Notes under the pieces: model-generated | What the model was told of the DNA's origin: nothing | Seen by the model: the letters and a program-made list of their open reading frames with translations, nothing else | Database searches by the model: none | Program-made: the position numbers and the translations under genes | Part shown: piece after piece, positions 3,847 to 35,470 of the stretch | Numbering within the stretch: the stretch's first letter is position 1 | How the letters are laid out: each line of letters starts with the position of its first letter | NCBI GenBank assembly: GCA_029939505.1 | Contig: JAOZSV010000011.1 | Location: 1 to 56,131, forward strand | Direction of reading: 5' to 3' | Source: Thiotrichaceae bacterium | GTDB lineage: Bacteria; Pseudomonadota; Gammaproteobacteria; Beggiatoales; Beggiatoaceae | Length of the DNA stretch: 56,131 bases

Positions 3847-6800
3847 TTAATCAGACGATTTTTTTTCCAAACAATGTTTTAATTGTTTTCCTAAGATTTC
3901 TACTTGGGGAGTATCAAATAAATTGTCGTACTCCTTTGCTGGAATTTCATAAAGCGTTATTGGTCCGGCGGCAACAGACTTCGCTAACTCCAATTCCACA
4001 GAATGCTTAGAACACCACTCGCTTTGATAAAAAAGTGTTATTTCTACAGGATAAGGTTGCGGCACATAATTTTCCAAAGCATTGGAATAAGAATTAAGAA
4101 ATTTGCTGTTTAACTCGTATGGCGAGTTTTTTTCTGTAACCTTATTATTGCTTAATCTGCTTAACAATCTGCGTTTTAATCTGATAATAAAATCATGCCA
4201 TCTTCTTTGTATTTTTAGGAACAAATAGCGAGGTCCTATTTCCAAAAAATTGTGCCAGTGCTGATGAAGAGGCCAGCGAGGATAATACGGTAAAGCTTGA
4301 ATCAAAGCTAAGAAAGCCACTTTGTGTCCCTGTACTTGGAGTTGTCGAGCCAATTCAAAAGCCAATTTTGCTTGACCACAATAGCCACCCACATAATAAG
4401 GACCTTCCGGTTGCACAGTTTGAATTTCTTGGATATATCGTTTGGCAATAATTTCCAATGAAGGTGCTGTCTGATTTAAACGTTGAAAGCCTAAAAGGTT
4501 TATGTTATAGACAGGTTGATTACTATCTAAAACCTTTACAAGAGAACGAGCATATCCTGTTGGACATAGGAAGAAAAAAGGAAGACGACTACCTTGAGTT
4601 TGAACAACTTCCAATATCCGCCACGAAATCGTATAGTTTTCATCACGCAATAGACTAGCCAGTTGTGCAATAGTTGGTGCTTGGAAAAGCGTTATCAAAG
4701 GTAAGTGCTTGTCAAGGTGTTTTTCAATCAGGCTCAACAGTTTCACCGCCAACAAAGAATGCCCACCGATGTCAAAAAAGTTATCATGTATCCCAATAGG
4801 GGAAATGCCCAATATTTTTTCCCAGATTTTAGTCAGTTGCTGTTCCAACGCATTTCGGGGCGCACAATAGCGCGTTTTGTCAATTTCTGGTATCGGCAAG
4901 TGACGACGATCAACTTTACCATTAGGCAATAACGGTATTTTGTCTAGTATGACAAAGGCGGAAGGTACCATGTAATTTGGCAGTTTGTCTTTAAGAAAAC
5001 GACGTAATTCCTCTCCCAATTCCTCTTGAGGAGAAGAAGGAACCACATAAGCCACAAGCCGCTTTAAGTCAGAGAAGTCTTTCCAAACAATAACTAGGCT
5101 CTCTTGAACAGCGACCTGTTGATCTAAAATCGTTTCAATTTCTCCAAGCTCTATGCGATAACCGCGCAACTTGATTTGTGCATCTTTTCTGCCCACAAAT
5201 TCCAGACAACCATCCGTTCTTAAACGCCCCATATCGCCAGTGCGATAGAGCCGCTGTTTGCCATCAGACAAAAATGCGGCTTGGGTTATTTCTGGTTTTT
5301 GCCAATAGCCCAGCGCGACATACGCACTTTTTAACGCAATTTCTCCATATAATTCCGTTTTCTCACCCGCTTCATTGTGCAATAAAACCTCAGTATCATC
5401 AACAGGATAGCCCACTGGCACCGTCTGCTGAGGATTTGAAGTTTGTTTATTAATGAAATATTGCAGGCTCACGGTTGATTCTGTAGGTCCTAAACCATTG
5501 ATAAATAGACAATTTTCTGAAAAAAACTGTTTGTACAAGTCAACATCGCTTTTATAAACTTCTTCGCCCCCCAATACAATTAAACGCAGCTTGGGAAAAC
5601 GATCCTCTTCCATCAGCGTGCTGATAAAATGGCGATAGACAGTCGGTGTTGAATGATAAATCGTCATTTCTTGTTTTTTGATAAATTCCTTAACGGGATT
5701 GGCTAAACTGTCTTCCTTGATGTTAATAGGATATAGCGTCGCGCCGTTTAATAAAGCACCAAAAATATCCATCACCGCCGCATCAAAGCTATAAGCAGAG
5801 AACAAGGTCAACTTGTCCTCAGCATTAATATGTAGCTTATTGGTATAATTTCTTATGAAATGCAGTACGTTACGATGGTTTTGCATCACTCCTTTCGGTT
5901 GCCCTGTTGAACCGGATGTGTAGAGTATATAGGCTAGGGTGTCTGGTAGTACAGCAGATGGTAGTACAGCGGATGGTAGTACAGCGGATGGTAGTACAGC
6001 GGATTGACGAAATAAACGAATTTTTTCTTGTTGAGGATGGGGTTCTTCAATATTGATAACCGAAAGAATATCACTCCTCAATTCTTGTGCGAGTTTCCAA
6101 TTCAAGTTATTGGTTAATAAAACACTGGCTTGTGAATCCTGCAAGATATAAAGTAATCTTTGGGTAGGTAAATCCGGCGCGAGTGGTATATAAGTCAAGC
6201 CCGCCTTCAATACGCCAAATATTCCCACAATCATTGAGATTTCATGTTCAAACAATAAAGCAATATTGCCACTATCACACTCTTTCAAAAGCGTTTGAGC
6301 AACTTGATTGGCGCGTTCATTTAATGAAAAATAAGTTAATGCTTCATGCTTCGTTTGAACAGCGATATGATCAGGATATTTTCTGACTTGTTGTTCAAAA
6401 CGTTCTGGAATTGATTGCTCAATATCGGCTTTGGCCAATTCAGTAAAGGCATTGGTTGGGCAAATATGAGCATCACTGCGAACCACAAAATGATGCTCTG
6501 CCTCTGTTAAAATCCGCAAAGTTGAAAGAGACGTTTCTGGGGCAGCGATAATACTTTCCAACAACGTTTGAAAATGTCCCACCATACGCTGCATCGTTGC
6601 TGCACTGAACAGGGCCGTATTATATTCAAACCAGCCGGTGATACCTTCCGCTTTTTCATATAATTCTAGGGTTAAATCAAACTTAACCGTACCCGTATTG
6701 ACGTTTAATGGCGTTGTTGTCAAACCGTCTAGTTTTAATTCAGGAAAATCAAAGTTTTGCAGTAAAAAAAACGTTTGGAATAAGAGATTATGACTGAGTT

Positions 6801-25508: not shown

Positions 25509-27242
25509 TTAAGCTAACTCTCTTTCTGGGGATAACAACATTTCATGATGCCCTTTACCAGCGGCAATCATCGGATACACCATCTCATCTTGATCAATAA
25601 CAAAGTCCATAAACACGAGGCGATCTTTTATCGCCAATCCTTCAGCAAGCGCGTTTTCAACTTCGCTAGGCTTCTCAATACGCATACCGATATGTCCATA
25701 ACTTTCTGCCAGTTTGATAAAGTCGGGCAATGCTTCCATATAGGTATGTGAATAACGCTTGTCATAAAACAGTTCTTGCCATTGACGCACCATGCCTAAA
25801 TAGCCATTATTCAACATGATGATTTTAATCGGCAAATCAAATTGTTGACAAGTCGATAATTCTTGTATGCACATTTGAATGCTGCCATCCCCTGTCACAC
25901 AAACCACCGTCTCGTCGGGATGCGCAATTTGTACACCCATTGCTGCCGGCAAGCCAAAGCCCATTGTGCCTAAACCGCCTGAATTGATCCAATGACGTGG
26001 TTGGGCAAATTGATAATATTGCGCCACAAACATTTGGTGTTGTCCAACATCAGAAGCGACAAAGGCGTTACCTTCAGTCAGTTGGCTCAGTTTTTCTAAC
26101 ACAAATTGCGGCTTAATAAGCGGACTATTACGATCATAATTTAAACAATTTTTCGCACGCCAAGTCTCAATTTGTTTCCACCAAGTGGTTAAGGCTCCCG
26201 CATCTGATTTTTGATCGGTTTCCTTTATCGTTTGAATCAAATCTTGTAACACTTGATCCACCGCGCCGACGATGGGAATATCGACTTTAACATTCTTAGA
26301 AATTGAGGAAGGATCAATATCAATATGAATAATTTTAGCGTAGGGACAGAATTTTTCTAAAACGCCTGTCACGCGATCTTCAAAACGCGCTCCGATAGCA
26401 ATTAAGACATCACTCTCGTGCATCGCCATATTGGCTTCATAAGTACCGTGCATACCGAGCATACCGACAAACTGTTTATCGGTGGGGGGGTAGCTTCCTA
26501 ATCCCATTAAAGTTTGAGTGATAGGATAGCCTAATAAGCGAGTTAAATCAATCAACTCTTTAGTGCTATTGCCTAACACCACGCCACCGCCTGAGTAAAT
26601 AATAGGGCGTTTAGCGGATAACATCATATCCGCCGCTTTACGGATTTGCCCCAGATGTCCACTAACAACAGGTTTATAGGAACGTATTTCCACCGTTTCT
26701 GGATATTCAAACACCGCCCGGTTAATTGTGACATCTTTAGGAATATCCACAAGCACGGGTCCAGGACGACCGGTTGTTGCAATATAAAACGCTTTTTTAA
26801 GGGTTTCTGCCAAATCTTTGACATCTTTGACCAAAAAATTATGCTTGGTACATGGACGGGAAATGCCCACAGCATCAACCTCTTGAAAGGCATCGTTACC
26901 AATCAAGGCGGTAGGCACTTGCCCCGTAATAATCACCATAGGGCTGGAGTCCAGATAAGCGGTCGCAATGCCTGTGATTGCATTAGTGGCACCAGGTCCT
27001 GATGTGACTAAAGCAACCCCTGGTTTACCTGTTGATCGTGCATAACCATCGGCGGCATGAACGGCCCCTTGTTCGTGACGAACAAGAATATGTTGCAATT
27101 TGTTTTGCTTGAAGATGGCATCGTAAATATGCAATGTGGCGCCGCCAGGATATCCAAATATATGTTCTACGCCTTCGGCGATTAATGCGTTGACAAAAAT
27201 ATCGCCACCTATCATCATTTCAGCTTCATTCGCTTTGTTCAT
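25509..27242 (-). CDS. ilvI: Acetolactate synthase catalytic subunit
   Basis: 577 residues. Three TPP-enzyme domains: the N-terminal domain has GYPGGATLHIYD, with the TPP-activating Glu in RHEQGAVHAADGYARSTG. The central FAD-type domain has PIIYSGGGV. The C-terminal TPP/Mg domain contains GDGSIQMCIQELSTC...NN. It condenses two pyruvates, or pyruvate with 2-oxobutyrate. ATG 27242 follows GAGG with eight-base spacing. The leader contains a 43-bp direct repeat (27267-27352) with internal dyad symmetry, a candidate control site. The next genes upstream are separated by a repeat array. Confidence 0.97.
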   Translation of the reverse strand: MNKANEAEMMIGGDIFVNALIAEGVEHIFGYPGGATLHIYDAIFKQNKLQHILVRHEQGAVHAADGYARSTGKPGVALVTSGPGATNAITGIATAYLDSSPMVIITGQVPTALIGNDAFQEVDAVGISRPCTKHNFLVKDVKDLAETLKKAFYIATTGRPGPVLVDIPKDVTINRAVFEYPETVEIRSYKPVVSGHLGQIRKAADMMLSAKRPIIYSGGGVVLGNSTKELIDLTRLLGYPITQTLMGLGSYPPTDKQFVGMLGMHGTYEANMAMHESDVLIAIGARFEDRVTGVLEKFCPYAKIIHIDIDPSSISKNVKVDIPIVGAVDQVLQDLIQTIKETDQKSDAGALTTWWKQIETWRAKNCLNYDRNSPLIKPQFVLEKLSQLTEGNAFVASDVGQHQMFVAQYYQFAQPRHWINSGGLGTMGFGLPAAMGVQIAHPDETVVCVTGDGSIQMCIQELSTCQQFDLPIKIIMLNNGYLGMVRQWQELFYDKRYSHTYMEALPDFIKLAESYGHIGMRIEKPSEVENALAEGLAIKDRLVFMDFVIDQDEMVYPMIAAGKGHHEMLLSPERELA

Positions 27243-27266
27243 TTATTGCCTCGTTAATATTTCAAT

Positions 27267-27352
27267 AAAATTCTATGGTGCAAGGTGGTGCTTGTACCAT
27301 AGAAACCTTAAAATTCTATGGTGCAAGGTGGTGCTTGTACCATAGAAACCTT
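27267..27352. repeat. 43-bp tandem repeat x2 with internal dyad, ilvI leader
   Basis: Two identical 43-base units starting at 27267 and 27310. Each contains CTATGGTGCAAG, GTGGTG, CTTGTACCATAG, an inverted repeat with 11-12 base arms. They lie 25 bases upstream of the ilvI start, so a role as paired operators or leader RNA hairpins is possible; they could also be a dispersed repeat. Confidence 0.85.
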
Positions 27353-27407
27353 GAAGATTATGCGATTTGGATAAAATTGAACATAATCTCAGTGGTATTA
27401 TCTCTTT

Positions 27408-27448
27408 ATGCGAATTAAGAGTTAAAAATTTCAACTCTTAATTCGCAT
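27408..27448. mobile_element. Family E miniature element, minimal form
   Basis: ATGCGAATTAAGAGTT and AACTCTTAATTCGCAT are inverted around only AAAAATTTC. The larger copy at 33688-33816 has the same ends with three CTAAAGCGTTGAACTCC units between the arms. Confidence 0.85.
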
Positions 27449-27514
27449 TCTTTGTTATTTTAAAACTTCAGAGGTTTAGAAAAAAATTTATCAGGGTAAG
27501 ATAAACTTGATTTG

Positions 27515-28074
27515 GAGTCAAATTTTTAATTTTCAACACCACGAAAAATGTGACTATTCTTAAAATTCAATCGAAAAACCTCTGAGGTTTTCAAAACCTC
27601 AGAGGTTTGGCTGAAAAACCTCAGAGGTTTTTAGTTTAGGTTTTTAAGTGAATTTATTTATCTGAAATTCTATAGAGTCAAAATTTTAATTTTCAACACG
27701 ACAAAAAATGTGACTATTCTTAAAATTCAATCGAAAAACCTCAGAGGTTTGGCGGCGAAAATTCAATCGAAAAACCTCTGAGGTTTCCAAACCTCTGAGG
27801 TTTGGCGGCGAAAATTCAATCGAAAAACCTCAGAGGTTTCCAAAACCTCTGAGGTTTGGCGGCGAAATTTCAATCGAAAAACATCAGAGGTTTCCAAACC
27901 TCTGAGGTTTGGCGGCGAAATTTCAATCGAAAAACCTCAGAGGTTTCCAAAACCTCTGAGGTTTGGCGGTGAAATTTCAATCGAAAAACCTCAGAGGTTT
28001 CCAAAACCTCTGAGGTTTGGCGGCGAAATTTCAATCGAAAAACCTCTGAGGTTTCCAAAACCTCTGAGGTTTGG
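27515..28074. repeat. Palindrome array: about 7 units of 53-54 bp of the ACCTCNGAGGT hairpin
   Basis: From 27722 to 28074 seven units read GGCGGCGAAATTTCAATCGA followed by AAAACCTCAGAGGTTTCC and AAAACCTCTGAGGTTTGG. Units are 53-54 bp except the first, which lacks one arm. Before it, a 68-bp sequence (27515-27582) recurs at 27675-27742. There are no unique spacers: the whole unit is repeated, so this is not a CRISPR. It fills the gap between speB and ilvI. An open frame on the minus strand (18 residues per unit) is a by-product. Confidence 0.92.
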
Positions 28075-28094
28075 CTAAAATTTAGTCGCCTGAT

Positions 28095-28988
28095 TTAACG
28101 GCTCAAATCCAGTGTTAGCAAAAGTTCTCTCACAATTTTTGCGGCAAATATTGCGCTGTTTTCAGTCGGATCGATAAAGGGAGCCAGTTCCACAACATCT
28201 GCGCCCACAAAATGCTTTCCTTTTAAAATATTCATGAGCTGAATAAAAGAGTGGAAATCTTCGCCACCTGGTTCAGGCGTTCCTGTTCCAGGAAGTAGCG
28301 CAGGATCGAAATAATCTAAATCTAAAGTCAAGTAAATGGGGCGAGATGAGTCAATACCTTTGATTTTATTAAGAAAAGAAGTCTTTGAAGAAGACAATGT
28401 CTTGTGGTTTTTCATCCATTGATATTCTTCTTTAGTGCCGGATCGGATACCATATTGAATCAAACGATGCTCAACACCAAACTGTTCGCTCACTCGACGT
28501 ATAATAGAGGCATCTGAAAAATCTTCTCCTTCTTCACGAAGATTGGCGTGGGCATCTAAATGGATGAGAATCAAATCGGGGTATTGCTTTAAATAAGTCA
28601 CTATTGGCGCGTAAGAAATGGAATGTTCGCCTCCCATGACCAAAAATTTGATTTTGTGCATTTCAAGGCCAATCTTTCTCGTGAATGAGAGAAAATAATC
28701 AGTGGCATCTTGCCAGCTTTTTTTATCTTTAATCTGTAAGTTGCCTAAATCCACACATTCAATATCGTTTGTATCGTGATCTAAATAGGGCGAGTATGTT
28801 TCTATATGGGGTGATTTCAGGCGTATTTCATCAGGCCCTTTGGCAGCTCCTTTTCTAAAACAGGCTGTGCCATCGAAATTAAAACCCATAATATGGGTGG
28901 TACGGCTATATAGCCATTTTGAGGTGTTAAAAGGCTCAAAATGCGCATTTATCGCCTCCATCTTTTGTAGTCTTTTTACTTTTTTCAT
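28095..28988 (-). CDS. speB: Agmatinase/arginase-family ureohydrolase
   Basis: 297 residues. Ureohydrolase motifs: GGEHSISY, LIHLDAHANLREEG, LTLDLDYFDPALLPGTGTPE, VELAPFIDPTENSA. Members hydrolyse agmatine or arginine to give urea using two Mn ions held by GGEH, DxHxD and DxDxxD. Here the middle motif reads D-A-H-A-N, so one metal-binding Asp is Asn, and the later His usual in SHA reads Asp (FSDAS). Activity or substrate may therefore differ from classical SpeB; the symbol is given on similarity. The gene stands alone between the palindrome array and the divergent gspE. Confidence 0.85.
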   Translation of the reverse strand: MKKVKRLQKMEAINAHFEPFNTSKWLYSRTTHIMGFNFDGTACFRKGAAKGPDEIRLKSPHIETYSPYLDHDTNDIECVDLGNLQIKDKKSWQDATDYFLSFTRKIGLEMHKIKFLVMGGEHSISYAPIVTYLKQYPDLILIHLDAHANLREEGEDFSDASIIRRVSEQFGVEHRLIQYGIRSGTKEEYQWMKNHKTLSSSKTSFLNKIKGIDSSRPIYLTLDLDYFDPALLPGTGTPEPGGEDFHSFIQLMNILKGKHFVGADVVELAPFIDPTENSAIFAAKIVRELLLTLDLSR

Positions 28989-33687: not shown

Positions 33688-33816
33688 AATGCGAATTAAG
33701 AGTTGAAAAGCGGCAAAGCTAAAGCGTTGAACTCCTCAGATCAAAGCTAAAGCCTTGAACTCCTATGTTCAAAGCTAAAGCGTTGAACTCCAAAATTTCA
33801 ACTCTTAATTCGTATT
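33688..33816. mobile_element. Family E miniature element containing three CTAAAGCGTTGAACTCC units
   Basis: Ends AATGCGAATTAAGAGTTGAA and TTTCAACTCTTAATTCGTAT are inverted. Between the arms are three units of CAAAGCTAAAGCGTTGAACT plus CC with short variable joints. The minimal copy at 27408-27448 has no such units, so the tandem block was probably added later. A solo family-D end lies at 33545-33556 in the same 420-base gap. Confidence 0.85.
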
Positions 33817-35294: not shown

Positions 35295-35326
35295 ATCTAT
35301 TCTCAATTTTTTTTCAAGTTAATGTT

Positions 35327-35470
35327 GTACAAAGCTAAAGCGTTGTACTCCAATTGTTTAAAGTACAAAGCTAAAGCGTTGTACTCCAATTGTCTAATGT
35401 ACAAAGCTAAAGCGTTGGACTCCAATTGTCTAATGTACAAAGCTAAAGCGTTGGACTCCAATTGTCTAAT
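35327..35470. repeat. 36-bp tandem repeat x4 abutting the DHH gene's ribosome-binding site
   Basis: Units starting at 35327, 35363, 35399 and 35435 read GTACAAAGCTAAAGCGTTGT followed by ACTCCAATTGTCTAAT. The last ends directly before AGAGGAAAT (35471-35479). Units 1-2 have GTTGTACTCC, units 3-4 GTTGGACTCC. A 12-residue periodic frame runs through them and is not believed to be a gene. Confidence 0.95.

Follow-up and report, generated by a model that had tools for sequence, protein, structure and literature searches.

An in-place tandem duplication of an inserted hairpin element probably gave rise to the palindrome array between speB and ilvI in a Thiomargarita-type bacterium

Introduction

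In a Thiomargarita-type member of the Beggiatoaceae with a genome of 5.6 Mb, the intergenic region between speB and ilvI carries a tandem array of short palindromes. How did such an array come to stand between these two genes, and does it serve either of them? The window, i.e., the whole stretch of DNA analysed here, comprises 56,131 nt and is an entire contig, whose SpeB protein is 96–97% identical to that of Thiomargarita sp. RS_2_10. The question reaches beyond this one locus, as arrays of this type break the assemblies of giant sulfur bacteria or distort them, and as an array that adjoins a gene need not be a regulatory device.

Results

Structure of the array

TRF detected a 54-bp period at 27735–28075, with 6.4 copies and 95% matches, and a repeat search of the window placed seven copies in register at spacings of 54, 53, 53, 54, 54 and 54 bp (Table 1). 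Both searches confirm the array of palindrome units that a first-pass annotation of this DNA had marked at 27515–28074. Each unit consists of two palindromes, AAACCTC[A/T]GAGGTTT, with the joint CC or CCA between them, followed by the spacer GGCGGCGAAA(A/T)TTCAATCGAA. Palindromes of the AACCTCWGAGGTT type occur 15 times at the array region and nowhere else in the window, and 107 were observed in 448 kb of the same genome, where about 0.012 would be expected by chance. Their central base is A in 120 cases, T in 115, C in 3 and G in 2. The A-centred and the T-centred palindrome are each other's reverse complement, so that each pair folds into one 33-nt hairpin with 15-bp arms (−15 kcal/mol when folded as DNA). 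The annotation had thus rightly read each unit as a hairpin, but as a single short one, whereas it is the pair that makes the longer structure. Spacers inside one array are near-identical instead of unique, and a CRISPR array was rejected on these grounds.

Table 1 Features of the speB–ilvI intergenic region and the adjoining genes in the window
Feature	Position	Strand	Basis or remark
Acetolactate synthase large subunit gene (ilvI/ilvB)	25509..27242	-	TIGR00118 above cut-off; array upstream of gene
Unrelated 43-bp hairpin, two exact tandem copies	27266..27351		Upstream of ilvI; one copy in sister species
41-bp hairpin element ATGCGAATTAAGAGTT...AACTCTTAATTCGCAT	27408..27448		Direct repeat TCTTT at 27403-27407 and 27449-27453; absent in sister species
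Outer repeat copy 1: host flank and hairpin start	27515..27590		Repeat search; host part single-copy in sister species
Left flank TAAAATTCAATCG	27561..27573	+	Source of the spacer's left-flank part; sequence and spacer test
Separate palindrome pair (27576-27590 and 27594-27608) and third palindrome (27616-27630)	27576..27630		Left of main array
MITE-like arm and end; TIR TATAGAATTTCAGATAAAT at 27656-27674	27631..27674	-	Pattern match (backwards control 0) and complete 92-bp copies
Outer repeat copy 2	27675..27750		95% identical to copy 1, 160 bp downstream; repeat search
Main array of tandem units (about 6.4, each 53-54 bp)	27735..28075	no strand	Repeat search and TRF
Right flank TAAAATTTAGTCG	28076..28088	+	Short direct repeat of left flank; proposed slippage site
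speB-type ureohydrolase gene	28095..28988	-	Agmatinase TIGR01230 above cut-off; array downstream of gene

The array is preceded by an outer repeat of 76 bp, whose two copies (27515–27590 and 27675–27750) are 95% identical and 160 bp apart. Its host sequence to the left of the array is duplicated here and single-copy in the sister species, and the junction of the 160-bp duplication sets a MITE arm end (CTATA) against GAGTC. The single sister copy and the MITE end at the junction bear out the suggestion that this repeat, first given as 68 bp, marks a second amplification step. Elsewhere in the window, two further arrays at 33714–33791 and 35326–35470 contain a common core, AAAGCTAAAGCGTTGRACTCC, and differ in their spacers (units of 28 bp and 36 bp); possibly, another repeat family has here undergone the same kind of in-place duplication.

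Dispersal in the genome and the family

Palindrome pairs are dispersed through the genome, with 254 copies under the looser pattern and 0 for the backwards-pattern control. Under a stricter pattern, exact pairs numbered 247 in this genome, 21 in the sister species, 1 in genome G001 and 23 in G027, which belongs to another genus; the remaining Beggiatoaceae genomes contained 0–9, most of them none. No pair was found in 397 other sampled Pseudomonadota, which speaks against a wide spread across the phylum, and the exact pair had 0 matches in 2.9 million viral contigs, on which count a phage origin was rejected. On this sampling, the palindrome pair belongs to the Beggiatoaceae and has undergone a burst in this lineage. 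Its palindrome sequences were not found in the literature searched.

In the examined contigs, which were mostly picked for matches and therefore yield no unbiased estimate of density, we counted 46 distinct clusters, at least 26 of them with four or more palindromes. The array is hence not the exception among scattered single hairpins that the annotation had seen in it. Similar-design arrays also occur in the sister species and in another genus, so that the annotation's suggested search for such arrays in relatives had a positive outcome. Among the 33 clusters located in large stretches, 31 lie at least partly outside open reading frames (ORFs of ≥100 aa cover 77%) and two lie inside them, and the element adjoins many genes in tandem, convergent and divergent settings. 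A different, very abundant repeat (L107, around 6237–6603) has dozens of matches of 80–95% identity in the sister genome G002 and shorter ones in G001; it is not the palindrome studied here.

Origin of the spacers

The palindromes are common to all arrays, while the spacer differs locus by locus. If a single inserted hairpin was duplicated together with its flanks, the spacer should open with the first bases of the right flank and close with the last bases of the left one. We assessed this in the 18 arrays with both outer flanks readable, ranking each array's own right-plus-left flank against those of all 18 loci; the foreign flanks form a fair null, as MITE arms are common to them. The array's own flanks ranked first in 13 of the 18 arrays and second in another four (binomial p 3e-13 for 13 first ranks at 1/18), with a mean spacer–flank identity of about 0.83 for own flanks versus 0.61 for other loci. 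The window array ranked first (0.83 own versus 0.77 for the best foreign flank), with its left edge set at 27577 in place of a decayed palindrome at 27464. These locus-specific spacers support the earlier proposal that hairpin and joint were amplified in tandem.

Tandem reiteration with locus-specific flanks, found in these 13 arrays, is likewise visible at loci that are single-copy in the sister species. At L116, this genome has an array of 15 palindromes and the sister a single pair between the same flanks; the units of the array meet at TTAAAG, which is found on both sides. Locus L202 comprises 79-bp units here and a single pair in the sister, and L124 a single pair here versus a partial duplication in the sister, with the spacer TGGCTCCACA+CGTTCTAAA. 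The window site has an array here and no pair in the sister. Its flanking 13-mers, at 27561–27573 and 28076–28088, differ by two mismatches and begin with the short direct repeat TAAAATT (27561 and 28076), and the junction is not a clean splice, reading GGCGGCG where GGCT would be expected.

MITE-like surroundings of some copies

Some copies of the pair are enclosed centrally in a MITE-like element of 92 bp that has TATAGAYGTTCAGAWAAAT ends, and longer inverted ends are seen in single-pair copies. At four places (C79, C268, C428 and C435), inverted TATAGA..TTCAGA ends stand exactly 92 bp apart; in both of the two elements examined in full, the pair is central, as in TATAGATGTTCAGATAAATAACTTCACC-pair-GGCTCCAAATATTTTTCTGAAAATCTATA. 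Across the genome, the motif TATAGANNTTCAGANAAAT was matched exactly 69 times and its reversed control not once; one match to the motif lies beside the main array, at 27656–27674, within the region marked by the annotation. A terminal inverted repeat (TIR) was located within 90 bp of 13 of the 46 clusters, compared to about 1% of random points, and a looser TIR search allowing three mismatches gave 51 matches versus 71 in shuffled DNA. TIRs with TA/TATA ends thus characterize part of the copies, and for these the element is, judged from its sequence, MITE-like. As 33 of the 46 clusters are without a detectable TIR, the hairpin may owe its movement to something other than the MITE shell.

In another genus, the pair is likewise found in a similar element, whose ends are TATAGT (L198). 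In the genome under study, elements at L219–L248 have the same TATAGA..TTCAGA ends with varied central hairpins (AACCTGACAGGTT, TTAGCCTCGA and GGGCAGACAGG types). Since elements with the same ends bear quite different central hairpins, the centre of the MITE looks exchangeable. No partner for the MITE ends was found among the five IS630-type DDE_3 loci examined, none of which had matching ends on both sides.

The site in the sister species

The sister species (G002) is about 95–96% identical in this region and has speB and ilvI in the same gene order, and the contiguous sequence between these genes contains 0 palindrome copies; the position of the array is occupied by TTCTTAAAGCTCAACTTGGTTGCCTGATT. 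The element is absent from the sister at the window site and at L107:7434, and the junctions are clean at neither. Because the empty site of the sister is not identical to the joined flanks of the window (TTAAAGCTCAACTTGG), the element may have been lost there instead of gained here, in what is a comparison of two genomes only.

The same intergenic region contains a 41-bp hairpin, ATGCGAATTAAGAGTTAAAAATTTCAACTCTTAATTCGCAT (27408–27448), with TCTTT on both sides and a clean empty site in the sister; by its appearance, this is a tiny mobile hairpin in its own right. The motif at its ends had 21 matches in about 650 kb, and the hairpin is also present in a 55-bp tandem array at L110:13707–13817. 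The unrelated 43-bp hairpin at 27266–27351, 300 bp away from the array, has two copies here and one in the sister, in keeping with tandem duplication of hairpins in this lineage.

Discussion

Formation of the array

We consider it likely that the array arose when a hairpin element, once inserted, was duplicated in tandem and in place together with its flanks, through slippage or joining at short homologies. A small palindromic mobile element of a non-autonomous kind would have arrived in the speB–ilvI intergenic region of this lineage, its centre being the 33-nt hairpin of two 15-nt palindromes, which at some sites lies inside the 92-bp MITE with its TATAGAYGTTCAGAWAAAT ends. The hairpin and a few flank bases would then have been duplicated head to tail, in place, probably through slippage of replication between the short direct repeats that flank the hairpin (here TAAAATT) or through their joining by short homology, and later units could have been added through slippage or unequal recombination. 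A separate 160-bp duplication appears to have copied the left host flank, and dozens of other copies in the genome would have undergone the same process. Slippage is the presumed molecular route, for which replication stalling at the hairpin is a plausible trigger, while a MITE transposase may have been the original mover.

A wider generalization, which we regard as doubtful, would see the 33-nt hairpin as an independent module that travels among MITE shells and other locations. In-place duplication bursts, possibly aided by a high genome copy number, would then be a general engine for locus-specific satellite arrays, and unrelated neighbouring hairpins would duplicate by the same route.

Alternative explanations

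A REP/REPIN (BIME) system, in which palindromes are moved by a RAYT (Y1 HUH) transposase and form ordered REPIN clusters as in Pseudomonas, would share with our element the high copy number, the intergenic bias and the paired inverted palindromes that form one hairpin. The genome indeed encodes two RAYT-like Y1 proteins and one IS200-type TnpA, and the clusters include flanking DNA, as reported for REPINs and GTAG repeats (PMC3116915; PMC3733652). The neighbourhood of the Y1 genes, however, speaks against such a link: AACCTCWGAGGTT was near none of 36 Y1_Tnp loci in the family, one of which has a related AACCTGACAGGTT pair, and no palindrome was present in the 19–20 kb stretches around three Y1 genes of this genome (L120–L122). 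Moreover, 35 of the 43 family genomes have Y1 genes, and the pair is missing from most of them; no GTAG or CGTC tag stands beside the palindromes. In single-pair copies checked by eye, this tag was likewise absent, the flanks being GAAA...TGGC or TCA...TTT. RAYT/REPIN membership was therefore rejected on the missing tag and the RAYT neighbourhood, and we do not file the element as a REP. Overall, we judge a REP/REPIN origin of the array to be unlikely.

The location of the array downstream of speB and upstream of ilvI, two genes on the same strand, could suggest a functional cis element. This could be an array of RNA hairpins, shielding the 3' ends of speB mRNA or attenuating read-through towards ilvI, or else an array with multiple sites for a binding protein. 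The predicted minus-strand RNA folds at −227 kcal/mol (z −16 versus shuffles), but the repetition of palindromes alone ensures such folding. Cruciform or RNA hairpin formation by the array, as the first-pass annotation had suggested, is physically plausible according to these models, and effects on expression of speB or ilvI are possible. Promoter-like and terminator-like matches numbered four each, versus 2.0 and 0.8 in shuffles, and the terminator-like matches are the palindromes themselves. The sister species, which has the same gene order without the array between these genes and hence does not need it there, speaks against a dedicated function, and so does the occurrence of the same element next to many further genes, be they in tandem, convergent or divergent orientation. 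An Rfam search of the window returned no match, and a known RNA was thus rejected. The proposed tie to speB and ilvI is therefore not upheld, and we rate a cis-regulatory role as very unlikely; the array presumably has no host function and is an ordinary product of genome instability, not a dedicated regulatory device.

Although many such arrays are located at contig ends or span 100-N gaps, it is highly improbable that the array is an artefact of a repeat collapsed or falsely expanded in short-read metagenome assembly, as the window array lies mid-contig with units distinguishable by AAAATT or AAATTT, GGTG and CATC variants, and as arrays of the same design recur in the sister and in another genus. 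Pair copies at contig ends, or no more than about 100 bases from them, were noted on C30, C31, C56, C73, C79, C86, C95, C100, C101, C102 and C443 (G000), and other arrays span 100 N. Such copies break the assembly, and copy numbers there are unreliable.

Comparison with known systems

Having set these explanations against in-place duplication of an inserted hairpin, we find parallels for the latter in several bacteria. From the same bacterial group comes Candidatus Thiomargarita nelsonii, for which a TATAG-ended MITE in a dsrA intron and unexplained palindromic repeats are reported (PMC4853749). As described, this MITE resembles ours in its TATAG ends, long central hairpin and predominantly intergenic occurrence on more than 100 contigs, and may belong to the same family; arrays with flank-derived spacers do not figure in the portion considered here. 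The BrickBuilt MITE of Porphyromonas gingivalis is a minisatellite inside a MITE (PMC4596501) and shares with our element the intergenic tandem array within a MITE, but its unit is 23 nt long without spacers, whereas the unit here is a hairpin pair plus a locus-derived spacer.

In a survey of GTAG- and CGTC-tagged repeats, large REP clusters likewise included flanking sequence, and GTAG-15 dimers of A. variabilis were inserted in a longer palindrome beginning TATAGGA (PMC3733652); those REP clusters bear the terminal tag, which our element does not possess. Some REPIN copies in Pseudomonas fluorescens SBW25 form ordered tandem repeats including flanks (Bertels and Rainey 2011, PMC3116915). As in our element, two palindromes there build one larger hairpin and the tandem repeats carry their flanks, but the SBW25 REPINs are linked to RAYT genes, while the pair described here has no such link and can sit in a MITE with TA-type ends. 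For REP/REPIN clusters, it is thus already on record that palindromes are reiterated in tandem along with their flanks. The comparison of arrays with single copies between two close species provides a readable record of hairpins seeding bacterial tandem arrays and, as the spacer of each array keeps the two joined ends, the slippage model for REP/REPIN clusters would become directly testable.
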